A stretch of DNA of 64,000 bases from Ceratobasidium sp. AG-K. Lineage: Eukaryota > Basidiomycota > Agaricomycetes > Cantharellales > Ceratobasidiaceae. Under the pieces are notes generated by a model, which saw only the letters and a list, made by a program, of their open reading frames with translations, was not told the DNA's origin and did no database searches. The DNA is taken from the NCBI GenBank assembly GCA_037039685.1, contig JAWNGF010000001.1, positions 9,176,001-9,240,000 of the forward strand, read 5' to 3'. Shown piece by piece: positions 35,907-64,000 of this stretch; position 1 is the first letter of the stretch, and each line of letters opens with the position of its first letter. Both the position numbers and the translations under genes were made by a program.

Positions 35907-36415
35907 TGTTGTAAGCTTCTTCTTGGTGGCTAGGAGACAAGCCACGATGGAGAGTGGACAGCACTAAGACCTAAGTGACCTCTTGAACTGCAACACACTT
36001 AAGTGTCTGTAGGCTCTTGAGGGTAGGGGTGGTTCAAAGTGTCACTCTAAGGGGATGTTTGACGAGACAAAACAAGCTGGGGTTACCAGGCTTGTTGGTC
36101 CTCTATATGTATTCACAAAGTGGCCAAGTCATACAAGGTGCAGCCACATGAGTCATACAAAACAGCCAGTCAGGAGTGTCCATGTGAGTCATGCTGTATG
36201 AACAGACATGACTCGTACAAGGCACAGCCGTGTTACACAATGTAACAGAATAACCACAAGAAGGTGGCAACGTGGCACAGGAAAAGACAAACAATGTACA
36301 AACAGGACGACAGACACAAGGACAGGCGGGCAAGGCACAAGACAAGTCCGATGGAGTGAGCTGGCTCATGACATTACTCCCCCTCAGGAGTCCATCTAGG
36401 GGACCTGGATGGACT

Positions 36416-37240
36416 TCATTGGATCTTGCAATCCTTGTCTTTGGCAAGCATGTGCTCTTCCAGGCCCTCATCCTCTTTGATGGTTAAGTCAATCGGGTTG
36501 AACACAGTGTTACCTGGTTCGTCTGAAAACTTTTCCCATTCCTCCCATGTCTCCTCCTTTGTCCAGTTGGCCTTGGACCAGTCCAACACCCTCTTCTGAG
36601 CCTCCACAAAGTCCTGGTCCCATTGTCGCACGTCCGGCTCTGCTTCCTTCCATGCTGACACATCTGCATCCTCCCACTTCCACCAGTTCGGAGCCCACTC
36701 AAACTTTTCCTTCTGGTATCTTCCCCTTTCCATCTTCCAGTCGCTCAAGTCCCTTTAGTAGTTGGCGTCCCAGGCGTTGTTCCACCTAGGTCGGAGCGTT
36801 GGTTGTCTCCCGTTGTACCCTGGTACCCACTCGCTCGAGTATGCCCCTTCTTGTCCCCATTCGACAACCCCAAGCATATGGGTGGAGAGGAGGACAACCT
36901 CCAAGACTTGGAACGCGGCGCATCCTTGACAAACAAAGATGTCCTTTTGTAGGAGTTGCATGCGTGTCAGCCATTTTTTCCCGACCCACTGGAATTCTCC
37001 CAGGTCTGAGTGTAGGACGTCATCTGACGCCCTAAAGTGCATTCTGCCAGAGCTTTGCTGTGCCCTTTTGAAGACGTAGAGGGCAGCTCCAGCGTCAAGG
37101 ATCCTTGCTGTGGCAAAGGCAGGTCCTTCAAGTATGCGGGTGAGGTTGTTGGCGATGGTGGCACAGGTAACGGCAGGCATAGTGGAGAGCAGAAAAGGTT
37201 CAGAGCGTAGATTTGTGAGTTTGTTTTGGAGTAGTAGCAA
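36416..37240 (-). pseudogene. Element A third ORF (broken)
   Basis: Homologous to the intact 277-codon ORFs of B (47954-48787) and D (59412-60245). It contains LEGPAFATARILDAGAALYVFKR-like and VLLSTHMLGVVEWGQEGAYSS-like segments and a Trp/Glu-rich C-terminus (WTKEETWEEWEKF). A stop after AWDANY (about 36755) splits it. No known domain was recognised. Confidence 0.75.
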
Positions 37241-40200
37241 GTTTTGCAGATGTCACTACCCACTGGGCCCCTTCTGCCTTTTATCTTTCCTGGAACGTAG
37301 TTAGATGGCGTGGGAGTGTTGGGGTGTCGACGTAGAAAGTCCTTGATGATCTTGGATTGATGTCCAAAATCTTGTGCCTTCTGTTCCGTGTCTTCTTCAT
37401 CTCCATATCCCTTCCATCTGATCCTGTAAAACAGGCCATCCTTTGTCTCCTTCCAGTCCACAATCTTTTCTACTTCATATTCCTCTTCTCCTTCTTCCGT
37501 AATGATTGGCGGCGGTTGGGGTTGGTTTTGCTTGAACTCTGCGTCTTCTATGTAAGGGCTGAGCAAGTCGATGTGGAAAACAGGGTGCACCCTCATTGCT
37601 GCTGGCAGAGTGAGCTCATAAGCATGTGATCCTATCTTTCGCTTCACAACAAACGGTCCATGCTTCTTGTTATCCAGTTTCTTTGAAGGTCTTTTTGTTT
37701 GGATGTTTCTTCCCAACAGCCATACTAGATCTCCTTCCTGGTACTCGTTCTTTGGTTCTTCCTGCGGGAGCCTTTGGTTTTCCATGGATGCAATTGCTTT
37801 GTCATGGATGTTACACCATTTTTCCGTGATTATGTTTGCTTCAGGAACCATCATTTCTTCTGATGAGATGTTCCACAATGGTTCCCTGCCGTAGACTATT
37901 GCAAAAGGGGAACTACCTGTTACACAGTGCTTCTGCAGATTATAACTGAATTCTGCAATTGGTAACAAGTCCACCCAATCATCTTGCCGATAGTTGACAA
38001 AGGATTGTAGCCAGCCTTCCATCCATTGGTTGATTCTTTCTGTCACTCCATCTGTCTGGGGGTGGTAGGCAGTGCTGAAACTTGGGCTGGTTCCAATTCT
38101 CTTGTAAATGGCCTTCATAAGTTTAGAATTGAAAGTAGTCCCTTGGTCTGAGATCATGCTTTTTGGAAAGCCGTGTAGTTTCCAAATATTTGTGACAAAA
38201 AGATTTGCCAGCTCGCTTGCCGTGTGAGATTCTTTGCAGGGTATGAAATGCGCCATTCTTGAGAACTGGTCCACCACTACCATGATGCTGTCTGACCCTC
38301 TGGACTTTGGCAATTTTACTACAAAGTCAAATGCTATGTCTTCCCAGGGACCTTTTGGAATTTCTAGAGGTTTGATTGGTACTATTGACCTTGATCCCCT
38401 TGCTCATTGGCAGGTCTCACAGGATTCCACGTGTCTGTTTATGCTCTGCTTCATCCCTGGCCAGAAGTATCTTCTTGCTATAAGTTCCAACATCCTGGCT
38501 TGCCCTTGATGCCCTGCAATCCTTGAGTCGTGGTGTAGTTGCATGATGGACAGTCTGGCTTCCTTATCTTCCGGGATGTAGATTTTCCCTTTGTACCATA
38601 TTAGTCCCTCCTTGAAGTCATAATCTTTTGCGCTATGTTGCAGGGTTCTTGGTAACATTTCCCTTGATTTGCAGATTTCCTTGATTTTTGCCAGTCCTTC
38701 ATCAGTTTCTTGTGCTTCCTTGATAGTTGCTACCATGTCTGTGTCCATCTGCCCCATAAATCCTTTAAATTTTTCAGCGGATATCATAACTTGTTCCAGT
38801 GTGGGAATATCCTCATGGTCAGATCGTCTTGACAACAGGTCCAGCTTAGACAAAAGGATTCCAGGACGGTATATGATATCAAAGTTGTAGGAAGCCAGTA
38901 GTTGATGCCATCTTGCGTGTCGACGGTTGAACGTTCTTGCTTCCTTCCAGAACTGTAGGTTCCTGTGATTGGTGTAGATTGTGATTGGATCCTTTGTCCC
39001 CTCAAGGTATAACCTCCAATGTGTCAGTGATTCTATGATTGCCATAAGTTCCTTGTCATGGACGTCGTAGTTGAGCTGTGCCTCATTGAAGGATTTTGAC
39101 AGGAACACTATGGGGTGTAGGTAGCCATCATCTTGCCTTTGAGATAGAATTGCTCCCATTGCTACTCCGCTCGCATCCGTTTCCAGAAAAAAGGGTTTCT
39201 CAGGGTCAGGATGGCATAGTGTGGGTTCCTTGCTGATTTCTGTTTTCAGGGCATCGAAAGCCTCCTGTTGATCCTTCTCCCATTTCCATTTGTTATCCTT
39301 TCTTGTAAGGGTTGTCAAGGGTTTTGCTAAACGGCTAAAATTCAGTACAAATCTTCGGTAGAAGTTTGTGAATCCTAGGAACGCCTGAACCTGCTTGACC
39401 GTTTTTGGTTCCTTCCATTCCTTTATTGCCTTGACCTTCTCTTCCTCCATTGAGATGCTAGAATCACTGATTCAAGTCCGGTATACGTAAGTTTGGTGAC
39501 AAAGAATTCGCATTTTGGGAGCTTTGCAAATAGGTTTTCATCCAGTAAGATCTTCAGCACCTTCCTGACATCTATAGTATGTTGGCTTCTGTTTTTAGAG
39601 AAGACTAGGATGTTGTCAATGTATACTATGACACATACGTCAATAAGGTCGTGGAAGATGTGGTTCATGTATCTTTGGAATATGGCGGGTGCGTTTTTTA
39701 GTCCAAATGGCATGACAACATATTTGAACAGGCCTTCTTTGGTTCTGAAGGCTGTCTTCCATTTGTCCCCTTCCCTAATTCTGATATTGTTGAAACCCAT
39801 GCGCAGATTGATTTTGGAGAATATTTTTGCATCCTTGATTTTATCCAGAAGATCTTCCATTAAGGGCATTGGGAACCTGTTGTCCTTTGTAATGGCGTTC
39901 ACTCCTCTGAGGTCTTGAACCAGCTGTAATTGTTGCACTGCTTCTGGATTCTTTGGATTGATGGGTTTTTTGACAAAGAAACAAGGTGATGCAATGGGGC
40001 TTTTGCTAGGTCAAATTTTCCCGGCGGCAATTTCCTCATCCAGGTATTCCCTTAGTGCAATTGATTTGGCCAGTGAGAGCAGGATAGGTCTGGCCGGTTT
40101 TGGAAGTTCAGCTCCTTCCTTGAAGTCGATGGCGCAGTTGTATGGGCAATGTTCCGGAATTTTCTTGAACTTTTCCTTGCTAAATACGTCGGCAAATTCC

Positions 40201-40658
40201 TTGAATTCTTCTGGAAGGTTGTCTATTGAGGCTGTTCTTGCCTGTATGGGTTCAGGTCCCCATGATATGTGCTTCGTTTTCCAGTTAATATTGGGGTTTG
40301 CTTCCTCTAACCATTCAAGTCCTAAAATGAGCTTGGTTTCTCCAGTAGGCATAGCAAAAAAGATTTGTTTGAAGGTTTTTCCTTCTATGTCAAGTACAAG
40401 CTTGGCTTTGAAGCGTATTTGGTGTGAGAGCTCTTTTCCCTGGATGCCAATTACTTTTCAAGGAGAGGGAAGCTCAATGAGAGGAATGTTGTTGGAGCGG
40501 GCCCAAGAGATGTCCATAAAGTTCTTAGAAGCTCCTGAATTGATGAGAGTAGGGACTGGTTCTGTGATTCCGGCAATGTTTGTGTAAACAATGGTTGATT
40601 CGTTTGTTGCTCTAAAGTACATTGTTTCCATTGCCGGTTTTTTGGTCTCTCCACACAC
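36967..40658 (-). pseudogene. Element A pol: protease-RT-RNase H-integrase-chromodomain, inactivated
   Basis: In order on the minus strand: aspartic protease with LINSGAS in place of LIDSGAS; RT with FSKINLR for FSKIDLR and YIDNI for YIDDI (two of the RT catalytic aspartates lost); RNase H with TDASG present but TNHRN in place of TDH; a zinc-binding HHCC region ending CETCQ; integrase with a VVVDQFSR segment and SDQGTTF; and a chromodomain (EEYEVEKIVDWKETKDGLFYRIRWKGYG). In-frame stops occur near 40011 (CGA to TGA), 39940-39960 and 38404. The frame after the chromodomain stays open into ORF3 territory. Every D-to-N change listed lies in a former CpG when compared with element D or B. Confidence 0.9.
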
Positions 40659-40685
40659 AGTTAGAGGGAGACCCCTTCTTTTCCC
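40644..40685 (-). promoter_or_regulatory. Candidate -1 frameshift signal, element A gag/pol
   Basis: Minus strand: heptamer G GGA AAA (plus 40679-40685) in gag phase, about five bases, then GGTCTC (40668-40673) able to pair with GAGACC (40644-40649). The gag stop lies between the stem arms and pol is in the -1 frame. Same arrangement in element D. Confidence 0.6.
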
Positions 40686-42642
40686 GAATCTTCTATTATT
40701 GTAGCTTCTCTTCCCTTTATGCTGGGCTCAGTTGCTATCCACTCCTTGGATGAGCATTTGAGCAAATGGTGACCTTCTTGGCCGCACTTCAGGCATTGGT
40801 TTGATGCTATTCTTGCCTTGTATACTTTGTCTGGAAGCCGCTTTGTAGAGGTTTGCCCAGTAGTGGTTGATTGGGGTGTTTTCTTCCTGGTGAATGCCTT
40901 GATTTGTTGCAATTTCTGGTTGATGGAGATTGCAAGAGTGATCCATTGGTTAAGGTTAAGGTGCCTTTCAGTTCCATCCTTGTTGATGAGGGAAAGTTCA
41001 AATCATGCCAATTCTGTTTTGATCTCCGGCTTGAGTCCTTCCTTGAATTGGTTGATAAGGGCTTCTTCCCCCCAATTCACATCTACCATGTGAAATCGGA
41101 ATTCTGTTGCATAGTTTGCTACTGAATTGGTTTGCTTGCTTTTTCAGATATCGGCTTCCACCTTAGCCTTTTTGTTAGGGTCGCTAAATTGTTCCATGAA
41201 GTGCAACTTGAATGTTTCCCATAATGTTAGGTTTGGATCAGGTACTCCATTGTTCATGGGTCGGGGTAGCACCTGTGCCCAATGTGTAGCGGGTCTGTTA
41301 TCCAATTTGAAATTGGCAAGTGCTTCTCTAATTTGTTCTTGTCCCAAGCTGTATTGGTCGCCCAACCTGACAAAGTAGCTTTCCAGTTGGGTGATGAACA
41401 TTTCTGCTCCCTCTCCTTTCTTCCCGTTGAAAGCTTCTGGTCTAGTTACTTTTGGATGCCTGTTTTCTCTTCTGTTGTCAGGGTTTTCAGAAAGCTGACG
41501 TAGCCTTTGTTCCAATTTGTCAAGCCTGGTGGATTCTGCTTTGGGGTGGGGAGGTGATACGGCATGTAGGGATGCTTCATCCATCTGTTTGCGCATGTTG
41601 TTGATTGTCTCTTGCATGGTGTTAATTTGTCCAATTGTAATCCTTCCATCTCCCCTTAGTCCTTCTAGTCCTTGGGTGACTGCTTCATTCCAGGCTAACT
41701 GTGCCTGCCTTGTGGTGTTAAGGTCTTCCTGTACATTGTTTACCAGTCCTTGTGTGTTTGTGACTTTGTTTCTTAGGCGGATTACGTCTTGCCCGACCAG
41801 GAAGCTGTTATGTTCACTGTTTTGTGCAGCAGTAAGGATATCTGTCAGGGTTCCTTGTAGGTTGTTGAGAGAATTGTTGAAGATTTGTTGGTTGTTGGCC
41901 AACACTTGAGTAGATTGTTCTAACCCATTGAGTTGCCTATTGATTGTTATCCTCATTCCATCAATAATCCTTAAGAGTGCATTGTGTCTTCCAAGGTGAA
42001 GATTGTCAAGGTCGTCAAGATTGCTAATCACCGTCCTACTGCTGGAACTGGAGCTTGAGGTGGGAATCCCAGGTACTTCTTGGCCTTCAGTTGCCATTGG
42101 TTGCTGTGAATACCCTTGTGGTACATATGGCGGTGCTGGGTTAACTGGTGTCACGGTTTGAGAGTTTATTGGGACTGGACCAGCATTGGTGATAGTTCCT
42201 GCAATCTGGGGTACTTGAGGAGTGTGGGAAATGTGCAGCGTGGGGGGGGTCTGATAGGAACAAGGGATACGCCCCCGTGAGCTTCAGGTTGAGGGGAAAA
42301 AAACTGTCTTCTGGATCCCATAGGCCATAGTGGACGCAATGGGCCTGGAGTTGTGTTTGAGATAGGGATTGGAATTGTGACCGGTGTGGGGTCATCGGTA
42401 ATATTGCCTGGTTCTCTGGTAACAATGGTGGGTTCTTCTTGTATGACTGAAACGTTCTCAGCATTGAATGTTCCAGGCATAGAGGCTTGGCTTTGTGGGC
42501 GAGACCTTGCTGGTCCCCCGGCTCGTGCCTGTGCAATATCTTGCTCGTTGAGGGAGCTTGTAGGTCTTGAAGCCCTACTTGGTCCTCTCCTTATTGATAA
42601 TGGTGTTGCAAGACGCAATCCCGCGTCCTCCTGAATGGACAT
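40661..42642 (-). pseudogene. Element A gag, frameshifted
   Basis: Starts MSIQEDAG at 42642 with a Pro/Arg-rich N-terminus. The frame shifts in a run of eight Cs (minus strand) near 42241-42250 and resumes at about 42170. A coiled-coil region and the retrotransposon gag core (ITQLESYFVRLGDQYSLGQEQI; ETFKLHFMEQFSDPNKKAKV) follow. A stop at 41144 interrupts, and a zinc knuckle CLKCGQEGHHLLKC (C-x2-C-x4-H-x4-C) is found at about 40800-40760. Gag ends with TAA at 40661-40663, and pol lies in the -1 frame. Confidence 0.85.
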
Positions 42643-42650
42643 GATTGTTA

Positions 42651-42662
42651 AGCTTGTTTTGT
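42651..42662 (-). promoter_or_regulatory. Element A primer-binding site, complementary to its own LTR
   Basis: Two bases inside the 5' LTR, the minus-strand sequence ACAAAACAAGCT is the exact complement of AGCTTGTTTTGT in the LTR (42825-42836), which starts 33-34 nt after a TATATATA box (42862-42870). No tRNA 3' end (TGG...) is recognisable at this position. It suits self-priming. Confidence 0.72.
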
Positions 42663-43136
42663 AATGTTGTAAGCTTCTTCTTGGTGGCTAGGAGACAAGC
42701 CACGATGGAGAGTGGACGGCACTAAGACCTAAGTGACCTCTTGAACCGCAACACACTTAAGTGTATGTAGGCTCTTGAGGGTAGGGGTGGTTCAAAGTGT
42801 CACTCTAAGGGGATGTTTGACAAGACAAAACAAGCTGGGGTTACCAGGCTTGTTGGTCCTCTATATATATTCACAAAGTGGCCAAGTCATACAAGGCGCA
42901 GCCACATGAGTCATACAAAACAGCCAGTCAGGAGTGTCCATGTGAGTCATGCTGTATGAACAGACATGACTTGTACAAGGCACAGCCGTGTTACACAATG
43001 TAACAGAATAACCACAAGAAGGTGGCAACGCAGCACAGGAAAAGACAAACAACATACAAACAGGACGACAGACACAAGGACAGGTGGGCAAGGCACAAGA
43101 CGAGTCTGATGGAGTGAGCTGGCTCACGACATAATT

Positions 43137-43850
43137 AGGCTTGCTGACTGTTGCGACAATTGTTATTAGTGCCCATTAGTGCCAATTAGGTCCATCCCTT
43201 TTTACAGACAAAGCTCTCCTAAGTGCTCACAAGCAATCAAGAGTGAAATGCACACTTATCTCGCAAGGGCTCACAAGACATCACGAGTGCTTGGGAGCCT
43301 GACAAGCACCTCCCCTGAATCCCAAGACCCCACAAGACAAACAAGATTTTGGGCTTTTTGTAGAGTGAACCTTATCTCCAAGGCTGACCGGGGGGCAAAT
43401 TAGCTCCACAATCATTTCAAATTCACTGTTTTTGGTATGGATCAACCCAAACCATGCGCATGGTGCCTGGAGTCTAAGGCAATACATCACTGAATGTGGC
43501 CATTTTTGGTTCAGTGTGCAGGTCACTAATATTCAGTTCCTTGGCCCCCAACAGTGTTGTATGCTCAACCAAAAGCAAGAAATCTTGTTTGGCTTGTGAG
43601 TTCTTGTGATGGCAGGCACTATCTTGTCAAGCTTGTGATGGTTTGTGAGTGCTCATGAGATGTTACAAGCAGAAACAAGCCTTTTACTTGTTTGTCTCCT
43701 GAGTGCTTATGAGCAATCCCGAGCACTCCAGAGACCACTGAGATAGTCCTGGGCATCACAAGACCTCAAGAGCCAACTGAGATTTCTCACTTTTGGTTGA
43801 GTGAGTACTGACAATGCTTGGGTGTAGAGCTCATCCAAATGATTTGACTT
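43137..43850. repeat. Right arm of the foldback repeat and flanking repetitive DNA
   Basis: 43137-43370 mirrors 35763-35906. The remainder (to 43850) is rich in variants of TCACAAG/CTTGTGA and TGAGTGCT, with further weak inverted symmetry (for example AACAAGATTTTGGG near 43345 against AAATCTTGTTTGGC near 43585). No gene. Confidence 0.55.
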
Positions 43851-44150
43851 TCAACCTTTGAGAACAATGTTTAGATGGCATATCATTGATCCTGCAGATG
43901 CTGTGATGTAGTGCTTTACAGTTGATGCCCACATGAAAACTCCACTTGTTTTCTCACACAGTTGCTCAATGCTTCCCACAGGCCACTTGCACACACAAGT
44001 GAATCCACCAAGCTCCTTTTCAAGGTATGCATATATGTCATTTGATGCCTCAAGGTTGTGAACATTAAGGTACAAGATGTGGGTATTATTGAGTTCATCA
44101 AAAAAATTCCTTGATGTCTTGATCAGGGCAACTTTGTCACAACCCAACAC
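43851..44150 (-). pseudogene. NACHT NTPase fragment
   Basis: The frame contains THILYLNVHNLEASNDIYAYLEKEL and EQLCEKTSGVFMWASTV, the segment after the sensor motif of Agaricomycete NACHT proteins (compare SGILFIYAATAVRYI in the NACHT gene at 14.6 kb). The P-loop and Walker B are absent. About 100 residues of a gene captured or left between repeats. Confidence 0.6.
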
Positions 44151-44159
44151 TATGATGGT

Positions 44160-44728
44160 TGCCGACTGTAACTGTATGTGCTTAAGTCAAGGCTTAGAGA
44201 GACTTGGCACCCAAAGAACAGTGAACTGTAGACTGTGAATGGCACTAAGGCCTGAGGCTCCAAGGTAACCCTGAGGGAAACCCAGCAAAGGACTGTTTGT
44301 TGGGGAAATGACAAGGCAAAACAAGATGGGGATACCATGCTTGTTGTTGCCTCATTATATATTCAGAAAAAAGGCATGAGTCACACTCATGCCAAGAAAC
44401 AAGTCATAGAAGCTATCCAATCAGAAAGCTCTATGAGTCATGTCCTATAAAGGAACATGACTTGCTGAGAAAGGAAGTTGCAAGACAAAAGAAAAAGGAA
44501 GCAGCTTAAGGCTGTGCAAGCACAAGGTAAACAGACACAAAGGAAACATGCACAAAGGAAATTGGAAACAAAGGAGACACAAGACAAGCAGCCAGAAGGC
44601 AAAGTCCATTGGAGGGGCCTTGGGTCATGACATTACCCCCCTTTAAGAGCCCATTTAGGGGACCTGAATGGTGACTACTGTAATTTACAGTTGCCCACCA
44701 TTTTTTTAAAGGCCTCCCTGTCCCCCTG
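44160..44728 (-). mobile_element. Family E LTR plus a short internal stub
   Basis: An LTR of about 470 bp ends TCATGACA at 44632; the start is only approximate. It resembles the A/B/D LTRs in layout (TATA near 44340, pyrimidine-rich site, same PPT type) but not in most bases. The adjoining 44633-44728 begins TTACCCCCC, the complement of a polypurine tract, so this is the 3' LTR side of a minus-strand element of which only about 95 internal bases remain. A second piece of the same LTR is at 58789-58914. Confidence 0.6.
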
Positions 44729-44867
44729 TGTTGTAAGCTTCTTCTTGGTGGCTATGAGACAAGCCGCAATGGAGAGTGGACGGCACTAAGACCTAAGAAA
44801 CCTCTTGAATTGCAGGACACTTAAGTGGCTGTAGACTCTTAAGGGTAGAGGTGGTTCAAAGTGTCAC
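44729..44867 (-). repeat. A-type LTR fragment, first 139 bp
   Basis: Matches the outer part of the LTRs of A, B and D (TGTTGTAAGCTTCTTCTTGG onwards) and is cut by the 5' LTR of element C at GTGTCAC. No continuation of the same LTR was found on the other side of C. Confidence 0.85.
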
Positions 44868-45112
44868 TGTCGTGACCTGTCCCGCCCTCTCTCTCTTCCT
44901 GTGGACTTGTGGCTTGTATTGGCGCCTTAAGCGCCTCTTCTGTATAGATGTGCCCTCTCCCTTGCTTAGTGAGGTGTATGGATGACGTGTCACCATGAGT
45001 CATATGACTCATGCTGTTTTCTATTGGCTGGCCTGCGCAGCCCCCTTTATGACTTGGACTTTGACTCAGACAAGTGACTCATGTATGTACTATGACTCAC
45101 TTGTTCTCTGAG

Positions 45113-45156
45113 TATATATACTGGCTTGCAAGCATGGTCATCCCCAGCTTGCTTTG
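45113..45156 (+). promoter_or_regulatory. Element C LTR promoter and self-priming donor site
   Basis: TATATATA at 45113-45120; AGCTTGCTTTG at 45146-45156, 33 nt downstream, where transcription should begin. This 11-mer is the exact complement of the PBS at 45358-45368. The 3' LTR keeps the TATA but reads AGCTTGCTTCG at the site. Confidence 0.68.
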
Positions 45157-45357
45157 TCTCGTCAACTCTCCCTGCAGTAGTGTGATCAGAGGCACTTGGC
45201 TACTTAGCCACTTCAGCAGCCACTTGGGATTTGGAGCAACGACTTGTACTTACAAGGTTGCAATTTCCCTTGGTGATTTAGTCTACTTAGACTTATCACT
45301 CACGGTCAACAGTCGATAGTTGTTGACAACACTTCTACTTAGCAGGTTGCGACATTG

Positions 45358-45368
45358 CAAAGCAAGCT
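45358..45368 (+). promoter_or_regulatory. Element C primer-binding site
   Basis: CAAAGCAAGCT, three bases inside the 5' LTR, exact complement of the LTR site at 45146-45156. No tRNA-like primer complement is visible. Confidence 0.68.
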
Positions 45369-45410
45369 TTTAGTACGCTGAGCCACGAGAAAACAAGGTC
45401 ACGTGACAAC

Positions 45411-47453: not shown

Positions 47454-47953
47454 TGTCGTAAGCTTCTTCTTGGTGGCTATGAGACAAGCCGCGATGGAGA
47501 GTGGACGGCACTAAGACCTAAGTGACCTCTTGAACTGCAACACACTTAAGTGTCTGTAGGCTCTTGAGGGTAGGGGTGGTTCTAAGTGTCACTCAAAAAG
47601 GGGTGTTTTGACAAGACAAAACAAGCTGGGGTTACCAGGCTTGTTGGTCCTCTATATATATACGAGAAGTGGCCGAGTCATACAAGGCGCAGCCACATGA
47701 GTCACAGCAGTCAACCAGTCAGGAGTGTCCAAGTGAGTCATGCTGTATGAACAGACATGACTCGTTACAAAGCACAGCCGCGTTACACAATGTAACAGAA
47801 TAACCACAAGAAGGTGGCAACGCGGCAAACAGAAACGGGAACGTAACAGAAAGAGAGAGACAGGCGGGCGAGACAATGGGCGAGTCCAATGGAGTGAGCT
47901 AGCTCACAACATTACTCCCCCCTAAGAGACCGTCTAGGGGACCTGGACGGGCT

Positions 47954-48787
47954 CTATTGGATCCCACAATCCTTGCCCTTTGCAAGCATGTACTCCTCCA
48001 GTCCCTCGTCCTCCTCCAGAGTCAGGTCGATGGGATTGAAGACGGTATTTCCCGGTTCGTCCGAGAACTTCTCCCATTCTTCCCAAGTCTCCTCCTTCGT
48101 CCAATCCACATTTGTCCAGTCCAAAACCCTCTCCTGGGCCTCCACAAACTCCTCGTCCCACTGTCGCACATCGGGCTCTGCCTCCTTCCATGCCGACACG
48201 TCAGCCTCCTCCTTCTTCCACCAGTAAGGTTCCCATATGATCTCCTCCTTCTGGTATCTGCCTCGCTCCATCCTCCAGTCGCTTAGGTCCTTCTCGTAGT
48301 TGGCGTCCCAGGCATCGTTCCATCTAGGTCGGAGCGTTGGCTGCCTTCCGTTGTAACCTGGTACCCACTCGCTCGAGTACGCCCCTTCTTGTCCCCATTC
48401 AACCACTCCGAGCATGTGGGTGGAGAGGAGAACAACCTCCGAGACCTTGAATGCGGCGCACCCTCGGCAGACGAATATGTCCTTTCGTAGGAGCTGCATT
48501 TGTGTCGGCCATTTCTTCCCGACCCACTGGAATTCCCCCAGGTCTGAGTGGAGGATGTTGTCCGAGGCCCTGAAATGCATTCTCCCCAAGCCTTGTTGCG
48601 ACCTCTTGAAGACGTATAGGGCGGCCCCGGAGTTGAGGATCCTTGCCGTGGCAAAGGCAGGTCCCTCCAGGACGCGGGTGAGGTTGTTGGCGATGGTGGA
48701 ACGGGTGACAGCAGGCATTGTAGAGGGCAAAAGAGATTTAAAGCGTCGAGTTGGGAGTGTTTCTTGGAGTAGTAGCAAGTTTTGCAA
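47954..48787 (-). CDS. Element B third ORF, unknown 277-codon protein
   Basis: An open frame between chromodomain and 3' LTR, nearly identical to the D copy (59412-60245). The likely functional start is the internal MPAVTRSTIANN, 22 codons in. It carries LHSDLGEFQWVGKKW, a C-x2-C pair (VCRGCAAF), LLSTHMLGVVEWGQEGAYSS and a strongly acidic, Trp-rich C-terminal third (WEPYWWKKEEADVSAW; WTKEETWEEWEKF). No transmembrane segment, so not a classical envelope protein. It overlaps the post-chromodomain extension of pol in another frame. Function unknown. Confidence 0.6.
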   Translation of the reverse strand: MQNLLLLQETLPTRRFKSLLPSTMPAVTRSTIANNLTRVLEGPAFATARILNSGAALYVFKRSQQGLGRMHFRASDNILHSDLGEFQWVGKKWPTQMQLLRKDIFVCRGCAAFKVSEVVLLSTHMLGVVEWGQEGAYSSEWVPGYNGRQPTLRPRWNDAWDANYEKDLSDWRMERGRYQKEEIIWEPYWWKKEEADVSAWKEAEPDVRQWDEEFVEAQERVLDWTNVDWTKEETWEEWEKFSDEPGNTVFNPIDLTLEEDEGLEEYMLAKGKDCGIQ

Positions 48788-48891
48788 GTGACACTACTGG
48801 CTTTGCCGCCTCTGCCTTTTATCCTCCCTGGAGCGTAGTTAGATGGCATGGGAGCCTCGGGGTGTCGGCGTAGAAGGTCCTTGATAATCTT

Positions 48892-49542
48892 TTAAAGGTG
48901 ACCAAAATCTTCCGCCCTTTGTTCCGTGTCTTCTTCACTTCCATAACCCTTCCATCTGACCCTGTAAAAAAGACCGTCCTTTGTCTCTTTCCAGTCCAAA
49001 ATCTTTTCTACTTTGTATTCTTCTTCTCCTTCTTCTGTTATGATCGGCGGTGGTCGGGGTTGGTTACGGCTGAATTCAGTGTCTCCTTTGTAAGGGCTGA
49101 GCAAATCGATGTGGAAAACAGGGTGCACCCTCATTGTTGCCGGTAAGTCAAGCTCATAAGCGTGTGACCCTATCTGTCGCTTTACAACAAATGGCCCGTG
49201 CTTTTTGTTATCCAGTTTCTTTGAAGGTCTTTTTGTTTGAATGTTCTTTCCCAGCAGCCATACTAGATCTCCTTCTTGGTACTCGTTCTTTGGCTCTTCT
49301 TTTGGGAGCCTTTGGGTTTCCATTGACGCAATTGCTTCGTCGTGGATTTTACGCCATTTTCCTGTGATGTTGTTTGCTTCTGGAACCGCTGATTCTTCTG
49401 CTGAGATGTTCCACAGTGGTTCCCTTCCGTAGACAATTTCGAAAGGGGAACTACCTGTTATGCGGTGCTTCTGTAGATTATAGCTGAACTCCGCAATCGG
49501 TAATATGTCCGCCCAATCATCCTGCCGGTAGTTGACAAACGA
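48892..49542 (-). pseudogene. Element B integrase C-terminal part and chromodomain
   Basis: Continuation of pol after the stop at 49543. It contains RPSKKLDNKKHGPFVVKRQI (GPY/F-like module), VHPVFHIDLLSPY and the chromodomain EEYKVEKILDWKETKDG followed by FYRVRWKGYGSEEDTEQ. The stop that separates it from the upstream part is CGA to TGA relative to element D. Confidence 0.8.
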
Positions 49543-51609
49543 TCATAGCCAGCCTTCCATCCATTGATTGATTTTCTCCGTTATTCCATCTGTTTGGGGG
49601 TGGTAGGCAGTACTGAAACCTGGGCTAGTTCCAATCTTCTCATAAATGGCTTTCATAAGTTTGGAATTGAAAGTAGTCCCTCGGTCTGAGATTGTGCTTT
49701 TTGGAAAACCGTGCAGTTTCCAAACATTTGTGATGAAGAGATCTGCAAGGTCGCTTGCCGTGTGAGATTCTTTGCAGGGTATGAAGTGCGCCATTCTTGA
49801 GAATCGGTCCACCACTACTAAGATGCTATCTGATCCCCTGGATTTTGGCAACTTCACCACAAAGTCAAAAGCTATGTCTTCCCACGGTCCTTTTGGAATC
49901 TCCAGAGGCTTGATCGGGACTATTGACTTCGATCCCTTTGTCCGTTGGCAGGTCTCGCATGATTCCATGTATCTGTTTACGCTTTGCTTCATCCCTGGCC
50001 AGAAGTATCTTCTTGATATTAGTTCCAGTGTTCTAGCCTGTCCTTGATGTCCTGCAATTTTTGAGTCGTGATGAACTTGCATGATGGCTAGTCTGGATTC
50101 CTTATCTTCTGGCACGTAGATCCTTCCCTTGAACCATAATAGTCCCTCCTTGAAATCATAATCTTTTGCGCTGTGTTGTAGGGTTTTTGGTAACGTTTCC
50201 CTCGATTTGCAGATTTCTTTGATTCGTGCCAGTCCTTCATCTGTTTCCTGAGCCTCCTTGATAGTCTCTATGATGTTCGTGTCAACTTGTCCCATAAATC
50301 CCTTGAACTTTTCGGCAGATATCATAACTTGTTCAGGCGTCGGGATATCTTCATGGTCTGACCGTCTTGACAACAGGTCCGGTTTTGATGACAGGATTCC
50401 AGGGCGATATATGATGTCAAAGTTATAGGAAGCAAGCAATTGATGCCATCTTGCGTGTCGACGGTTGAACGTTCTTGCTTCTTTCCAGAATTGTAAGTTC
50501 CTATGGTCGGTGTAGATGGTGATAGGGTCCCTTGTTCCTTCAAGGTATAGCCTCCAATGTGTTAAAGATTCTATGATAGCCATAAGTTCTTTATCGTGGA
50601 CGTCGTAGTTGAGCTGAGCCTCGTTGAAAGACTTTGAAAGAAAAGCAATAGGGTGCAAGTAGCCATCGTCTTGTCTTTGCGACAAGATTGCTCCCATTGC
50701 TACTCCACTTGCGTCCGTCTCCAGGAAAAAGGGTTTGTCAGGGTTTGGATGGCGTAGAGTGGGTTCCTTGCTGATTTCTGTTTTTAGGGCCACAAATGCT
50801 TCCTGTTGATCGTTTCCCCATTCCCATTTGTTCTCCTTTCTTGTCAAGGTTGTCAGGGGTTTTGCTAGAACCTGTGTGGCCTGTTCTAGGCCACTAAGCC
50901 TTCGATCTATGGTGACCCTCATTCCGTCTATAACCCTAAGGGTAGCGTTGTGTCTTCCTTCTAGAAGGTCGTCTAGGTCATCTAAATTGCTGATTACAGT
51001 CCTGCTGCTAGAACTGGAACTTGAACTTGAGCTTCCTGGATCACCGGCGCTTTGTTGCACCGGTCCTGGTTGCTCGGAGTAACCTTGTGGGATATATGGT
51101 GGTGCTGGAATTGCCGGTGTGACTGGCTGGGAAGCCATTGGGACCGGTCCTGTGTTGGTGATGGTTCCTTCAATTTGAGGAACTGTAGGGACATTGGGAA
51201 CGTGCGGTGTAGGCAGAGGTCTAATAGGGACAAGCGATACGCCTCCATGTGCTTCGGGTTGGGGAGAAAAGAACTGTCTTCTATTTCCTAACGGCCACAA
51301 GGGGCGTGATGGCCCTGGAGTTGCAGTTGGTATGCGAATTGTTGCTGGAGTGGGGTCGTTTGTGAGATCTCCTGGTTCCCTATTTGTGATAGTGGGTTCT
51401 TCCTCTTGTACAACTGTCATGTTGGCTATGCCGAAAGCTCCTGGCATTGATGCTTGGCGTTGGGGGCGTGATCGGGTAGGACCTCCCGCTTGAATTTGTG
51501 CGATATCTTGTTTGTTCAATGATCCTGTGGGCCTTGCTGCCCGATTGGGTCCTCTTCTTGTTGATATAGTGGATGAGGGGCGTGACCCTCCATCTTCTTG
51601 AATAGACAT
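49543..51609 (-). CDS. Element B fused ORF: gag N-terminus joined in frame to RNase H-integrase
   Basis: 688 codons. The first roughly 255 residues are gag N-terminus (MSIQEDGG..., a Ser run near 51030, ISNLDDLDDL, a coiled coil to QATQVLA). At about 50868 the frame passes directly into KPLTTLTRKENKWEW, the RT thumb/connection, then RNase H (ETDASG, DKELMAIIES, IYTDHRN: all three carboxylates present), the HHCC zinc region and the integrase core to WMEGWL, where TGA replaces CGA. Compared with A, about 2.6 kb from gag to RT is deleted without frame loss. A few bases of microhomology (TTTGCTA-like) lie at the junction. Confidence 0.85.
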   Translation of the reverse strand: MSIQEDGGSRPSSTISTRRGPNRAARPTGSLNKQDIAQIQAGGPTRSRPQRQASMPGAFGIANMTVVQEEEPTITNREPGDLTNDPTPATIRIPTATPGPSRPLWPLGNRRQFFSPQPEAHGGVSLVPIRPLPTPHVPNVPTVPQIEGTITNTGPVPMASQPVTPAIPAPPYIPQGYSEQPGPVQQSAGDPGSSSSSSSSSSRTVISNLDDLDDLLEGRHNATLRVIDGMRVTIDRRLSGLEQATQVLAKPLTTLTRKENKWEWGNDQQEAFVALKTEISKEPTLRHPNPDKPFFLETDASGVAMGAILSQRQDDGYLHPIAFLSKSFNEAQLNYDVHDKELMAIIESLTHWRLYLEGTRDPITIYTDHRNLQFWKEARTFNRRHARWHQLLASYNFDIIYRPGILSSKPDLLSRRSDHEDIPTPEQVMISAEKFKGFMGQVDTNIIETIKEAQETDEGLARIKEICKSRETLPKTLQHSAKDYDFKEGLLWFKGRIYVPEDKESRLAIMQVHHDSKIAGHQGQARTLELISRRYFWPGMKQSVNRYMESCETCQRTKGSKSIVPIKPLEIPKGPWEDIAFDFVVKLPKSRGSDSILVVVDRFSRMAHFIPCKESHTASDLADLFITNVWKLHGFPKSTISDRGTTFNSKLMKAIYEKIGTSPGFSTAYHPQTDGITEKINQWMEGWL

Positions 51610-52100
51610 ATTGTATGTTGTTAAGCTTGTTTTGTAATGTCATAAGCTTCTTCTTGGTGGCTATGAGACAAGCTGCGATGGAGAGTGGACGGCACTAAGA
51701 CCTAAGTGACCTCTTGAACCGCAACACACTTAAGTGTCTGTAGGCTCTTGAGGGTAGGGGTGGTTCTAAGTGTCACTCAAAAAGGGGTGTTTTGACAAGA
51801 CAAAACAAGCTGGGGTTACCAGGCTTGTTGGTCCTCTATATATATACGAGAAGTGGCCGAGTCATACAAGGCGCAGCCACATGAGTCACAGCAGTCAACC
51901 AGTCAGGAGTGTCCAAGTGAGTCATGCTGTATGAACAGACATGACTCGTTACAAAGCACAGCCGCGTTACACAATGTAACAGAATAACCACAAGAAGGTG
52001 GCAACGCGGCAAACAGAAACGGGAACGTAACAGAAAGAGAGAGACAGGCGGGCGAGACAATGGGCGAGTCCAATGGAGTGAGCTAGCTCACAACAGACAC

Positions 52101-56914: not shown

Positions 56915-57441
56915 GCCCAGGCGCTCCACTACCTGGCCCTATGTGGGGGGGCAATGTCGTGACCTGTCCTGCCCTCTCTCTCTTCCTGCAGACTCGTGGC
57001 TTGTATCGGCACCTTAAGCGCCTCTTCTGTATAGATGTGCCCTCTCCCTTGCTTAGTGAGGTGTATGGATGACGTGTCACCATGAGTCATATGACTCATG
57101 CTGTTTTCTATTGGCTGGCCTGCGCAGCCCCCTTTATGACTCGGACTTTGACTCAGACAAGTGACTCATGTATGTACTATGACTCACTTGTTCTCTGAGT
57201 ATATATACTGGCTTGCAAGCATGGTCATCCCCAGCTTGCTTCGCCTTGTCAACTCTCCCTGCAGTAGTGTGATCAGAGGCACTTGGCTACTTAGCCACTT
57301 CAGCAGCCACTTGGGATTTGGAGCAACGACTTGTACTTACAAGGTTGCAATTTCCCTTGGTGATTTAGTCTACTTAGACTTATCACTCATGGTCAACAGT
57401 CGATAGTCGTCGACAACACTTCTACTTAGCAGGTTGCGACA

Positions 57442-58481: not shown

Positions 58482-58914
58482 GATCACCAATCAATTATTC
58501 TGTGTCCAGTGTATATATTAAATGTATCAATTTTACAGATGAGCAACACATGCCAATGTTACCAGGGAAAAGTGTGTCCTCAGACAACAGCAATGAGTCA
58601 CGTGTCCAAATACTTTATGTCAGCCGTAGTACAAAGCACAGCCGCGTTACACAATGTAACAGAATAACCACAAGAAGGTGGCAACACGGCACAGGAAAGG
58701 ACAAACAACATAAAAACAGAACAACAAATGAGAGAGCAGACAGGCGAGGCACAAGACAAGCCTGATGGAGAGAGCTGGCTCACGACACCTTAGAGAGACT
58801 TGGCACCCAAAGAGCTGTGAACTGTAGACTGTGAACAGCACTAAGGCCTGAGGATCCAAGGTAACCCTGAGGGAAACCCAGTGAGGGACTGCTTGTTGGG
58901 GAAATGACAAGGCT
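58482..58914. repeat. Repeat scraps: A-type LTR end and family E LTR piece
   Basis: 58628-58788 matches the last third of the A-type LTR (CAGCCGCGTTACACAATGTA to CACGACA). 58789-58914 matches the start of the family E LTR (AGAGACTTGGCACCC to ATGACAAGGC) and is interrupted by element D. 58482-58627 is unassigned, probably the end of the Tc1 element. Confidence 0.75.
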
Positions 58915-59369
58915 GTCGTAAGCTTCTTCTTGGTGGCTATGAGACAAGCCGCAATGGAGAGTGGACGGCACTAAGACCTAAGTGACCTCTTGAACTGCAA
59001 CACACTTAAGCGTCTGTAGGCTCTTGAGGGTAGGGGTGGTTCTAAGTGTCACTCAAAGGGGATGTGTTGACAAGACAAAACAAGCTGGGGTTACCAGGCT
59101 TGTTGGTCCTCTATATATATTCAAGAAGTGGCCGAGTCATACAAGGCGCAGCCACATGAGTCACCGCAGTCAACCAGTCAGGAGTGTCCAAGTGAGTCAT
59201 GCTGTATGAACAGACATGACTCGTACAAAGCACAGCCGCGTTACACAATGTAACAGAATAACCACAAGAAGGTGGCAACGCGGCAAACAGAAACGGGAAC
59301 GTAACAGAAAGAGAGAGACAGGCGGGCGAGACAATGGGCGAGTCCGATGGAGTGAGCTAGCTCACAACA
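58915..59369 (-). repeat. Element D 3' LTR
   Basis: About 455 bp, close to the LTRs of element B. It holds the TATATATA box (near 59115) and AGCTTGTTTTGT on the minus strand (near 59075-59090) with the same spacing as in A. Confidence 0.9.
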
Positions 59370-59411
59370 TTACTCCCCCCTAAGAGACCGTCTAGGGGAC
59401 CTGGACGGGCT

Positions 59412-60245
59412 CTATTGGATCCCACAATCCTTGCCCTTTGCAAGCATGTACTCCTCCAGTCCCTCGTCCTCCTCCAGGGTCAGGTTGATGGGATTGAAGA
59501 CGGTATTTCCCGGTTCGTCCAAGAACTTCTCCCATTCTTCCCAAGTCTCCTCCTTCGTCCAATCCGCATTTGACCAGTCCAAAACCCTCTCCTGGGCCCC
59601 CACAAACTCCTCGTCCCACTGTCGCACATCGGGCTCTGCCTCCTTCCATGCCGACACGTCAGTCTCCTCCTTCTTCCACCAGTAAGGTTCCCATTTGATC
59701 TCCTCCTTCTGGTATCTGCCTTGCTCCATCCTCCAGTCGCTCAGGTCCTTCTCATAGTTGGCATCCCAGGCATCGTTCCATCTAGGTCGGAGTGTTGGCT
59801 GTCTTCCGTCGTAACCTGGTACCCACTTGCTCGAGTACGCCCCTTCTTGTCCCCATTCAACCACTCCGAGCATGTGGGTGGAGAGGAGAACGACCTCCGA
59901 GACCTGGAATGCGGCACACCCTCGGCAGACGAATATGTCCTTTCGTAGGAGCTGCATTCGTGTTGGCCATTTCTTCCCGACCCACTGGAATTCCCCCAGG
60001 TCTGAGTGGAGGATGTCGTCCGAGGCCCTGAAATGCATTCTCCCCGAGCCTTGTTGCGACCTCTTGAAGACGTATAGGGCGGCCCCGGAGTCAAGGATCC
60101 TTGCCGTGGCAAAGGCAGGTCCCTCCAGGACGCGGGTGAGGTTGTTGGCGATGGTGGAGTGGGAGACGGCAGGCATTGTAGAGGGCAAAGAAGATTTAGA
60201 GCGTAGAGTTGGGAGTGTTTTTTGGAGTAGTAGCAAGTTTTGCAA
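59412..60245 (-). CDS. Element D third ORF, unknown 277-codon protein, overlaps pol
   Basis: An uninterrupted frame between the chromodomain and the 3' LTR; it overlaps the open post-chromodomain part of pol by about 500 bp in another frame. The internal MPAVSHSTIANN (60176) is the likely start. Features: LEGPAFATARILDSGAALYVF, LHSDLGEFQWVGKKW, C-x2-C (VCRGCAAF), LLSTHMLGVVEWGQEG, and an acidic Trp-rich C-terminal third. It is conserved, apart from scattered substitutions, in B, and recognisable in A. No membrane segment, no known fold. It might be a nuclear or gag-accessory protein; that is a guess. Confidence 0.62.
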   Translation of the reverse strand: MQNLLLLQKTLPTLRSKSSLPSTMPAVSHSTIANNLTRVLEGPAFATARILDSGAALYVFKRSQQGSGRMHFRASDDILHSDLGEFQWVGKKWPTRMQLLRKDIFVCRGCAAFQVSEVVLLSTHMLGVVEWGQEGAYSSKWVPGYDGRQPTLRPRWNDAWDANYEKDLSDWRMEQGRYQKEEIKWEPYWWKKEETDVSAWKEAEPDVRQWDEEFVGAQERVLDWSNADWTKEETWEEWEKFLDEPGNTVFNPINLTLEEDEGLEEYMLAKGKDCGIQ

Positions 60246-63200
60246 GTGACACTACTGGTTTCGCCCCCTCTGCCTTTTATCTTCCCTGGAGTGTAGTTAG
60301 ATGGCGTGGGAGCCTCGGGGTGTTGGCGTAGAAGGTCCTTGATGATCCTTGAAAGGTGACCAAAATCTTCCGCCCTTTGTTCTGTGTCTTCCTCACTTCC
60401 ATAACCCTTCCATCTGACCCTGTAAAAAAGACCGTCCTTTGTCTCTTTCCAGTCCAAAATCTTCTCTACTTCGTATTCTTCCTCTCCTTCTTCTGTTATG
60501 ATTGGTGGTGGTCGGGGTTGGTTACGGCTGAATTCAGTGTCTCCTTTGTAAGGGCTCAGCAAATCGATGTGGAAAACAGGGTGCACCCTCATTGTTGCCG
60601 GCAAATCAAGCTCATCAGCGTGTGACCCTATCTGTCGCTTCACAACAAATGGCCCGTGTTTTTTGTTATCCAGTTTCTTTGATGGTCTTTTCGTTTGAAT
60701 GTTCTTTCCCAGCAGCCAAACTAGATCTCCTTCTTGGTACTCGTTCTTCGGCACTTCTTCTGGGAGCCTTTGGGTTTCCATTGATGCAATTGCTTTGTCC
60801 CAGATTTTACGCCATTTTCCTGTGATGTTGTTTGCTTCTGGAACCGCTGATTCTTCTGTTGAGATGTTCCACAGTGGTTCCCTTCCGTAGACAATTTCGA
60901 AGGGGGAACTACCCGTTACGCGGTGCTTCTGTAGATTATAGCTGAATTCCGCAATTGGTAACAAGTCCGCCCAATCATCCTGCCGGTAGTTGACGAACGA
61001 TCGTAGCCAGCCTTCCATCCATTGATTGATTCTCTCCGTTATTCCATCCGTTTGGGGGTGGTAGGCAGTGCTTAACCCTGGGCTAGTTCCAATTTTCTCA
61101 TAAACAGCTTTCATAAGTTTGGAATTGAAAGTAGTCCCTCGGTCTGAGATCGTGCTCTTTGGAAAACCGTGCAGTTTCCAAACATTCGTGATAAAAAGAT
61201 TTGCAAGGTCGCTTGCCGTGTGAGATTCTTTGCAGGGTATGAAGTGCGCCATTCTTGAGAATCGGTCCACCACTACTAAGATGCTATCTGATCCCCTGGA
61301 TTTTGGTAACTTCACTACGAAGTCGAACGCTATGTCTTCCCACGGTCCTTTTGGAATCTCCAGAGGTTTGATCGGTACTATTGACTTCGATCCCTTTGTC
61401 CGTTGGCAGGTCTCGCATGACTCCACGTATCTGTTTATGCTTTGCTTCATTCCTGGCCAGAAGTATCTTCTTGATATTAGTTCCAGTGTTCTAGCCTGTC
61501 CTTGATGTCCTGCAATTTTTGAGTCGTGATGAATTCGCATGATGGCCAGTCTGGATTCTTTATCTTCTGGTACGTAGATCCTTCCCTTGAACCATAATAG
61601 TCCCTCCTTGAAATCATAATCTTTCGCGCTGTGTTGTAGGGTCTTTGGTAACGTTCCCCTCGATTTGCAGATTTCTTTGATTCGTGCTAGTCCTTCATCT
61701 GTATCCTGAGCCTCCTTGATAATTTCTATGATATTCGTGTTTACTTGTCCCATGAATCCTTTGAACCTTTCGACAGATATCATAACTTGTTCAGGCGTGG
61801 GAGTATCTTCATGGTCGGATCGTCTAGACAATAGGTCCGGTTTAGATGATAGGATTCCAGGGCGGTAAATGATATCAAAGTTATAGGAAGCAAGCAATTG
61901 ATGCCATCTTGCGTGTCGACGGTTGAAAGTTCTTGCTTCCTTCCAGAACTGTAGGTTCCTATGATTGGTGTAGATGGTGATGGGGTCTTTTGTTCCTTCT
62001 AGATATAGTCTCCAATGTGTTAAAGATTCTATAATAGCCATAAGTTCCTTATCGTGGACGTCGTAGTTGAGCTGAGCCTCGTTGAAAGATTTTGAAAGAA
62101 AAGCAATAGGATGTAGGTAGCCATCATCTTGCCTTTGCGACAGGATTGCTCCCATTGCTACTCCACTTGCGTCTGTTTCCAAGAAGAAGGGTTTGTCAGG
62201 GTTCGGATGGCGTAGAGTGGGTTCCTTGCTGATCTCCGCTTTTAAGGCTTCAAATGCTTCCTGCTGATTGTTTCCCCATTCCCATTTGTTCTCCTTTCTT
62301 GTCAAGGTTGTCAGGGGTTTTGCTAAACGGCTGAAATTCGGTACGAATCTTCGGTAGAAATTCGCGAATCCTAGGAATGCTTGGACTTGCTTGACTGTTT
62401 TTGGTTCCTTCCACTCCTTTATTGCTTTGACCTTTTCTTCCTCCATAGAGATGCCCAAATTGCTGATTCCAAGTCCAGTATACGTTAATTTGGTGACAAA
62501 GAATTCGCATTTTGGAAGCTTTGCGAAAAGATTTTCCTCCAGTAATATCTTTAGTACTCTTCTGACATCCACGGTGTGTTGGCTTCTGTCCTTGGAGAAG
62601 ACCAGGATGTCGTCAATGTATACAATGACACATACGTTGATAAGATCATGGAAAATGTGATTCATATATCTTTGGAAGATGGCGGGCGCGTTTTTTAGTC
62701 CAAAAGGCATGACGACGTATTCGAAGAGTCCTTCTTTTGTTCTGAAAGCTGTCTTCCATTCGTCGCCTTCTCTAATTCTGATATTGTTGAAACCCATGCG
62801 TAGATCAATCTTGGAGAAAATTTTCGCGTCCTTGATTTTATCCAGGAGGTCTTCCATTAGGGGCATTGGGAATCTGTCGTCCTTTGTAATGGCGTTTACT
62901 CCTCTGAGGTCTTGAACAAGTCGTAGCTGGCGAACTGCTCCTGGATTTTTTGGATCAATGGGTTTTTTAACAAAGAAACAAGGTGATGCAATGGGTGATT
63001 TGCTTGGTCGGATCTTTCCCGCTGCGATTTCTTCATCCAGGTATTCTCTTAGTGCAATTGATTCCGCTGGAGAGAGTGGGATTGGTCTGGCCGGTTTTGG
63101 AAGTTCAGCTCCTTCCTTGAAATTGATGGCGCAGTCGTATGGTCGATGATCTGGGATTCTTTTGAATTTCTCTTCACTGAAGACATCGGCAAATTCCTTG

Positions 63201-63655: not shown

Positions 63656-63682
63656 AGTTAGAGGGAGACCCCTTCTTTTCCC
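63641..63682 (-). promoter_or_regulatory. Candidate -1 frameshift signal, element D gag/pol
   Basis: Minus strand: G GGA AAA (plus 63676-63682) in gag phase, about five bases, GGTCTC (63665-63670) pairing with GAGACC (63641-63646); the gag TAA is at 63658-63660 in the loop and pol lies in the -1 frame. Confidence 0.62.
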
Positions 63683-64000
63683 GAGTCTTCCATAATTGTT
63701 GCCTCCCTTCCTTTAACGCTGGGTTCCGTCGTTATCCATTCCTTGGACGGGCATTTGAATGATCAGTGTCCTTCTTGTCCGCACTTCAAGCAGCGGTTGC
63801 TTGCTATCCTTGCTTTGTATACTTCATCGGGTAGCCGCTTTGTAGAGGATTGTCCGCTAGCGGTTGGTTGAGCTGCCTTCTTTCCTGTGGAGACCCTGAT
63901 TTGTTGCAATTTCTGGTCAATAGAGATTGCAATTGAGATCCAACGATCAAGGGAAAGTTCTCGTTCTGTTCCATCTTCATTGATCAGGGTAAGTTCGAAA
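63658..64000 (-). pseudogene. Element D gag C-terminus (partial at window edge)
   Basis: Minus-strand frame with the zinc knuckle CLKCGQEGH followed directly by TGA and then SFKC; the knuckle Cys/His ligands are in place (C-x2-C-x4-H-x4-C counting the stop codon as one residue). A has an ordinary residue at the stop position. CGA to TGA would explain it. Gag proper ends at TAA 63658-63660. Confidence 0.75.

Follow-up and report, generated by a model that had tools for sequence, protein, structure and literature searches.

Lineage-matched primers and primer-binding sites point to Tf1-type self-priming in Ty3/Gypsy elements of Ceratobasidium sp. AG-K

Introduction

Most long terminal repeat (LTR) elements use a transfer RNA (tRNA) as the primer of reverse transcription. 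What primes the Ty3/Gypsy elements of the basidiomycete Ceratobasidium sp. AG-K is a question raised by a stretch of 64,000 nucleotides (nt) of its genome (assembly GCA_037039685.1, contig JAWNGF010000001.1, positions 9,176,001 to 9,240,000 of the forward strand), hereafter the window, on which all coordinates are counted from the first letter. In two elements of the window, named A and C, the primer-binding site (PBS) next to the 5' LTR is complementary to a site within that LTR. The original prediction for this locus was that these elements self-prime with the 5' end of their own RNA, as Tf1 of Schizosaccharomyces pombe does, and that selection maintains the pairing. Here we report that five lineages of the genome (A, C, D, E and F) each carry a PBS matching the LTR site of their own lineage, and that, to judge from these sequences, the Ty3/Gypsy elements very probably self-prime as Tf1 does.

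Results

The PBS of elements A and C is complementary to their own LTRs

In element C, the 11 nt at 45358-45368 (CAAAGCAAGCT) are the exact reverse complement of the LTR sequence at 45146-45156, and in element A the 12 nt at minus 42651-42662 (ACAAAACAAGCT) are the exact reverse complement of minus 42825-42836; both complementarities had been reported before and were exact on re-check. Each PBS lies 2 nt (TT) past an LTR ending in CA, the spacer occupying 42663..42664 of the minus strand in A and 45355..45356 of the plus strand in C. The pairing stretch of C is 12 nt long, with the PBS at 45357..45368 (GCAAAGCAAGCT, plus strand) and the putative self-primer of the 5' LTR at 45146..45157 (AGCTTGCTTTGT, plus strand); its pair 12 is G:U in the window copy and C-G in 25 of 26 loci of family C. 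The corresponding putative self-primer of A, AGCTTGTTTTGT (42825..42836, minus strand), would form the 5' end of the RNA. The original prediction had A and C differ at one paired base. That difference, at pair 7, is compensatory, and a second compensatory pair, pair 12, had been overlooked: at both positions the two elements differ on both sides, T-A standing against C-G.

Five lineages match their own LTR site

The search covered the 53.6 Mb genome in 17 contigs. Lineage D is present in the window as a solo LTR (44135..44632, minus strand), whose putative primer ATCTTGTTTTGC (44316-44327, minus strand) was used to predict, before searching, that a PBS GCAAAACAAGAT would be found beside LTR ends. 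This PBS pattern matched 121 places in the genome, and its reversed control none. Among the 100 listed matches, 13 consisted of ACATT followed by the PBS, and nearly all the others were the LTR site read backwards. In eleven of these 13 D loci the LTR partner is perfect over 12 nt; in one it contains a one-base gap, and in one (L075, retained in every count) the LTR is degenerate. Gypsy elements picked by their reverse transcriptase (RT) and fetched whole (L059-L062 and L156) all fell, five of five, in lineages with a self-complementary PBS. They include the representative of lineage E (L060), whose PBS AGAACAAGTCTTGT is fully complementary to its own LTR site ACAAGACTTGTTCT, and that of lineage F (L062), whose PBS is GTAAATTGTTCTT and in which the 5' LTR is decayed at two primer positions and the 3' LTR is exact. 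The core of the E site, ACAAGACTTGT, is nearly palindromic and could permit RNA dimers via the primer or the PBS.

Pairing was then counted across genomic copies. For A, the 30 best of 40 scored loci were used, chosen for their resemblance to the PBS region, and 28 of them pair perfectly over 12 nt (29 of 31 with one locus added later). The C set comprised 28 loci. Three of them (L002, L004 and L044), whose match goes no further than the LTR and which are 3' or solo LTRs lacking a PBS, were removed for the pairing counts and L059 was added, giving 26 loci, of which 8 are perfect and 15 when one G:U is allowed (7 more with 11 Watson-Crick pairs). Lineage E pairs perfectly over the inner 12 nt in 37/40 loci, with the second of its 14 pairs mismatched in 9/40, and 8 of 13 further F loci match exactly over 13 nt. 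The LTR-site pattern had 1647 matches in the genome and its reversed control 0. When mixtures of the A and C forms were permitted in the PBS pattern, 726 matches were obtained; the 100 listed were 85 of A type and 15 of C type, with no mixed form among them.

Each PBS was also compared with the LTRs of its own lineage and with other LTRs. Own-lineage pairing was 12/12 for A, D, E and F (in F with the 3' LTR) and 11/12 for C, represented by a copy with one G:U, and a PBS set against other LTRs reached at most 10/12 and, once, 11/12. Dinucleotide-shuffled LTR pieces gave a full match in 0/5000 for each of A, D, E and F, and gave the full 11-nt match of the window C copy in 3/5000. Chance matches of 9-10 nt do arise because the sequence is simple, and PBS-A matches 10 nt in one Copia LTR. 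Chance similarity was rejected on the shuffled pieces and the cross-table together. In A, at most one of 191 other 12-column windows equals or exceeds the conservation of the LTR site or of the PBS, and the sites of D and E rank near the top; those of C do not stand out, in a ranking that still includes L002, L004 and L044.

At the sequence level, the covariation across families is strong, the PBS differing among the five lineages and fitting, in each, the LTR site of that lineage. The exception lies within family C, at pair 10, which is a CpG site and is TA in 9 loci, CA in 8, TG in 6 and CG in 3, without covariation. In the window, the C primer ends in TTTGT in the 5' LTR and in TTCGC in the 3' LTR (AGCTTGCTTCGC, 57233-57244, plus strand), and at other loci mostly in TTTGC, TTCGC or TTCAC. 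Substitutions between paired LTRs are transitions in 14/15 cases for A, 13/13 for C and 3/3 for B1 (an element nested between the LTRs of C), and 9, 10 and 3 of them, respectively, lie in CpG context. Because the 3' LTR differs, CpG transitions dominate and the family lacks covariation here, the exact T-A pair 10 of the window copy probably arose by two separate decays, one per side. Pair 10 was accordingly rejected as support, since it is exact in the window yet varies independently among loci. The substitution pattern of A, B1 and C resembles the decay of methylated cytosines.

The LTR site lies where transcription is expected to start

The original prediction placed the LTR site 33 nt after the start of a TATA-like box, and this distance recurred in 26/30 A loci and 25/28 C loci. 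In the window the TATA box region lies at 42858..42871 of the minus strand in A (AATATATATAGAGG) and at 45112..45121 of the plus strand in C. The distance is 34 nt in 8/13 D loci, and in E it is 31 nt to the 14-mer in 35/40 loci and 33 nt to the conserved 12-mer. From this spacing, the LTR site would be the 5' end of the RNA. In most copies of every one of the five lineages, CC or CCC(C) stands before the primer site and CTTG or CTCG after it, at the expected cleavage junction; A, C and D share the CCCCA-CTTG context and part of the primer. What differs between lineages is thus the primer, set in a similar flanking frame. The folding models of some leaders pair the bases following the primer with GACA at the end of the LTR.

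No fit to the Gypsy PBS among 39 tRNA genes

None of the five PBS starts with TGG. The PBS of A, C, D and E were compared with 39 tRNA genes (38 distinct), and against the 3' CCA-anchored ends they matched at most 2 nt. Their best internal matches were 7-9 nt, and 60 shuffled regions gave 6-10 nt. No tRNA among these genes pairs better with the four PBS than the LTR site does, in agreement with what had been predicted, and tRNA priming of the Gypsy elements was rejected for lack of a fit in this set.

Three Copia elements (L154, L155 and L157) served as a control. They have a common PBS, GTTATGAGCCC, after LTRs with visibly different ends, and its complement in the own LTR is at most 5 nt long. 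This PBS matches the spliced anticodon arm (the splicing being deduced) of a tRNA-Met gene with an intron and appears to be of half-tRNA-Met type, as in the half-tRNA priming of Drosophila copia and Ty5; it is unrelated to the Gypsy PBS. ARAGORN placed introns in 32/39 tRNA genes. A genome search with an uninterrupted initiator-tRNA pattern gave 0 matches, presumably because introns interrupt the genes. With an intron gap the pattern occurred in four places, and ARAGORN, run on two of them, called a tRNA-Met in one and nothing in the other.

A third primer copy may fold into a hairpin spanning the putative start site

An inverted copy of part of the primer lies between the TATA box and the primer, in the U3 (unique 3') part of the LTR, in every one of the five lineages. 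In the window, such a copy adjoins each of the eight LTR primer sites found (36086-36096, 42844-42854, 44335-44345, 45128-45137, 47635-47645, 51819-51829, 57215-57224 and 59094-59104). Together with the primer it is predicted to form a hairpin across the putative start site, the left arm being the PBS-like AACAAGCCTGG in A (42844..42854, minus strand), GCAAGCATGG in the 5' LTR of C (45128..45137, plus strand), 57215-57224 in the 3' LTR of C (plus strand) and 44335-44345 in the solo LTR of lineage D (minus strand). At least 5 primer bases pair with the U3 stretch in 54/54 distinct sequences from the five lineages (two of them from F). Shuffled spacers folded at least as stably in a median fraction of 0.033 for A, 0.010 for C, 0.030 for D, 0.000 for E and 0.007 for F, and this fraction was ≤0.05 in 46/54 single sequences. 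In the models the left arm begins upstream of the primer, by 18 nt in A, C, E and F and by 23 nt in D. When spacers were exchanged between lineages, the own spacer gave the best fold for the C, D, E and F primers, in D by a small margin over the C spacer, and the A primer folded equally well with the C, D and own spacers.

The hairpin could form only at the 3' end of the RNA or in RNAs started upstream. We suggest that it hides the second primer copy. As a tentative and rather doubtful extension of these models, the U3 arm (about -18 to -8) could act as a lock that confines the primer to a local hairpin both in RNAs begun too far upstream and in the 3' LTR, so that only a correctly started 5' end reaches the PBS; primer, PBS and lock would then change together, making the priming of each family largely private to its own RNA. 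Such a lock would explain how a self-priming RNA avoids pairing of the PBS with the primer copy at its 3' end. Alternatively, by analogy with Ty3, the U3 copy may be a second binding site. The bipartite PBS of Ty3 also has a second primer-complementary site in U3, at the 3' end of its RNA, and in the parts of PMC5371799 considered its two sites bind different parts of one tRNA, whereas the U3 copy here repeats the same complement and could not bind the same 12-nt primer simultaneously with the PBS. The literature searched, which left most subscription journals outside, yielded no description of such a U3 hairpin; a hairpin with a third matched primer copy is possibly new.

Discussion

Proposed mechanism and alternative explanations

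Taken together, the lineage-matched pairs and the lack of a fit among the 39 tRNA genes argue for self-priming of the Tf1 kind, a mechanism already known; the likeness predicted for Tf1 thus stands, apart from a primer that is here 12 nt or slightly longer. Transcription would start at the A of CCC(C)A, roughly 33 nt downstream of where the TATA box begins if the spacing is a guide, and the leading 12 nt of the transcript (as many as 13 in F and 14 in E) would fold back onto the PBS 2 nt beyond the 5' LTR, with which they can pair by sequence. If the steps known from Tf1 apply, the element RNase H would then cut behind the primer, before CTTG or CTCG, and the freed 3' end of the primer would start minus-strand DNA. 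The matching would persist because only paired copies replicate and because plus-strand synthesis would copy the primer into the PBS. More speculatively, the U3 hairpin with its third matched copy would probably hide the primer of the 3' LTR, leaving only the true 5' end to prime.

Several points weigh against self-priming. In family C, 11/26 loci carry one or two mismatches or a gap, which we attribute to post-insertion decay, and neither site stands out in conservation from the sequence around it. The loci of A and E were chosen by similarity to a stretch containing the PBS, and those of D and F by a PBS pattern, which makes the PBS letters of D and F invariant by construction (this invariance was therefore rejected as support); the conservation of the A, D and E sites is thus due in part to the choice of loci. 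The tRNA set is incomplete and does not hold all isoacceptors. Finally, when leaders were folded freely, the primer:PBS duplex, which is one of three in the 'pretzel' fold that serves as a mark of the Tf1/sushi group in the 5' leader, dominated in three of five and not in the other two (mean pair probability 0.96 for the window copy of C, 0.95 for D, 0.99 for E, 0.37 for A and 0.06 for C at locus L057), a mixed outcome which suggests that proteins or further RNA structure may be needed.

Several other explanations compete with self-priming. The pairing could be a structural or regulatory RNA element (for packaging, dimer formation or translation) rather than a primer; the evidence consists of sequence pairing, and the near-palindromic E site ACAAGACTTGT would suit dimer formation. 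The pairing nevertheless sits 2 nt from the LTR end, where the PBS must lie, in all five lineages, and a tRNA-type PBS was looked for at that place in A, C, D and E without success, which leaves this explanation improbable. A cellular tRNA or tRNA fragment could also prime, with the LTR complement incidental. Such priming is the rule among LTR elements in general, the three Copia elements here carry a PBS of half-tRNA-Met type, and the gaps in the tRNA set leave room for it. It would, however, have to do without a TGG start in any of the five PBS, with CCA-anchored matches of at most 2 nt and with internal matches within the range of shuffled regions in A, C, D and E, and it would take five separate tRNAs, every one coinciding by accident with the LTR site of the element it primes; we judge it very improbable. 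Least credible, with hardly any chance of being right, is that the A, C and D sites agree through descent from a common site, with chance adding the rest, and not because of a function. The context and part of the primer are indeed common to these LTRs, but PBS and LTR site change in concert, both at the two A/C positions and at the bases altered in D; the pairs of E and F are different ones; and the primer and PBS of A are unusually conserved (partly by locus choice), although those of C are not.

A further possibility is compatible with self-priming and concerns what keeps the sites matched. Plus-strand synthesis of Ty3 extends into the attached tRNA primer, as described in the portions of PMC5371799 consulted, so selection need not be the sole cause of the matching; the original prediction that the pairing is maintained by selection was too strong, as matching could be partly templated in the same way. 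We give an even chance to the matching being, for the most part, a product of templating, with the primer copied into the PBS at every cycle. This would fit the behaviour of Ty3, the finding that entire primers and not just single bases differ between lineages within similar flanks, the lack of a mixed PBS type among the 100 listed matches, and the loss of pairing in copies that decayed after insertion. Against it, templated copying is not directly observable in integrated copies, and a mismatched primer must prime at least once. Should the behaviour of Ty3 hold for these elements, one cycle could be enough for an altered primer to overwrite the PBS, which raises the question of whether the primer rewrites the PBS each cycle and lets a lineage change its priming code in one step.

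Relation to known elements

As in Tf1 and Tf2 of Schizosaccharomyces pombe, the PBS is complementary to the RNA 5' end (here a predicted one), a tRNA-type PBS is lacking (39 tRNA genes; A, C, D and E), the element is a chromodomain Gypsy element and the LTR ends in CA. Differences are the length of the primer, which is 11 nt in Tf1 (PMC7175516, in the text available), and the separate open reading frames (ORFs) of gag and pol in L060, Tf1 having one ORF according to the available part of PMC10085805; unlike in Tf1, cleavage and RNA 5' end are deduced here from sequence. In the accessible text of the sources, self-priming was shown experimentally for Tf1 and elsewhere derived from sequence. It is given there as known in chromoviruses of fungi, vertebrates and lower plants, as predicted within the Tf1/sushi group for Tj1, Tosmo1-3, sushi-ichi, Tcn1 and the moss Tcn1 clade, and as proposed for Tcn1 of the basidiomycete Cryptococcus (PMC10085805, PMC7175516, PMC6317226, PMC4600332). 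SM-Tcn1, an element of the Tcn1 clade, is reported without evidence of self-priming in the available part of PMC2864245.

Compared with the Tf1/sushi group, one genome here holds five lineages with different matched primers in hundreds of copies, and a matched U3 hairpin is predicted, of which the available portions of those papers make no mention. The elements thus form a well-supported new set of a known mechanism, and matched lineages side by side were not found described in the parts of the literature covered. Five matched primer/PBS pairs in hundreds of copies provide natural covariation evidence and ready compensatory pairs.

Elements of the window and their relatives

Element A, a Ty3/Gypsy chromovirus by its pol-frame domains, occupies 35907..43131 on the minus strand; comparison of its 5' LTR (42665-43131) and 3' LTR (35907-36373) gave 96.8% identity, and the target duplication TAATT is present at each end. 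Element C lies on the plus strand, with its 5' LTR at 44868..45354 and its 3' LTR at 56955..57441. A target-site duplication was looked for at its outer ends and none was seen, and its two LTRs may therefore not stem from one insertion. Nested inside C (44868-57441) is B1 (47454..52095, minus strand); together with the lack of a target duplication, this nesting suggests that the LTRs of C may be recombinant. B1 has A-type LTRs (about 51638-52095 and 47454-47911, minus strand) with a primer at 51800-51811 and a PBS at 51624-51635 (minus strand), each of exact A type. Of element B2 (58913..64000, minus strand) only the 3' part is present; it has an A-type 3' LTR (about 58913-59369) with a primer copy at 59075-59086, and a pol frame of 1304 amino acids at 59741-63655 that encodes RT, RNase H, integrase, SH3_Tf2-1 and a chromodomain, all on the minus strand.

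RT, RNase H, integrase and chromodomain were found by Pfam in the frames of A, B2 and C, which are chromodomain Ty3/Gypsy elements. The E and F frames contain the same domains together with SH3_Tf2-1, which also occurs in A, B2 and C (L059) and which we take as a lead only to membership of the Tf1/sushi group. A C-terminal chromodomain with the Ty3/Gypsy pol order is therefore present in A/B2, C, E and F, four of the five lineages, and comparing A, C, E and F with one another gives 45-60% identity for the RT domain. Genome-wide, a first look gave 1423 RT candidates (150 scored, all above the cut-off). An open pol frame of 1323-1350 codons is present in many of the candidates listed, which suggests recent activity.

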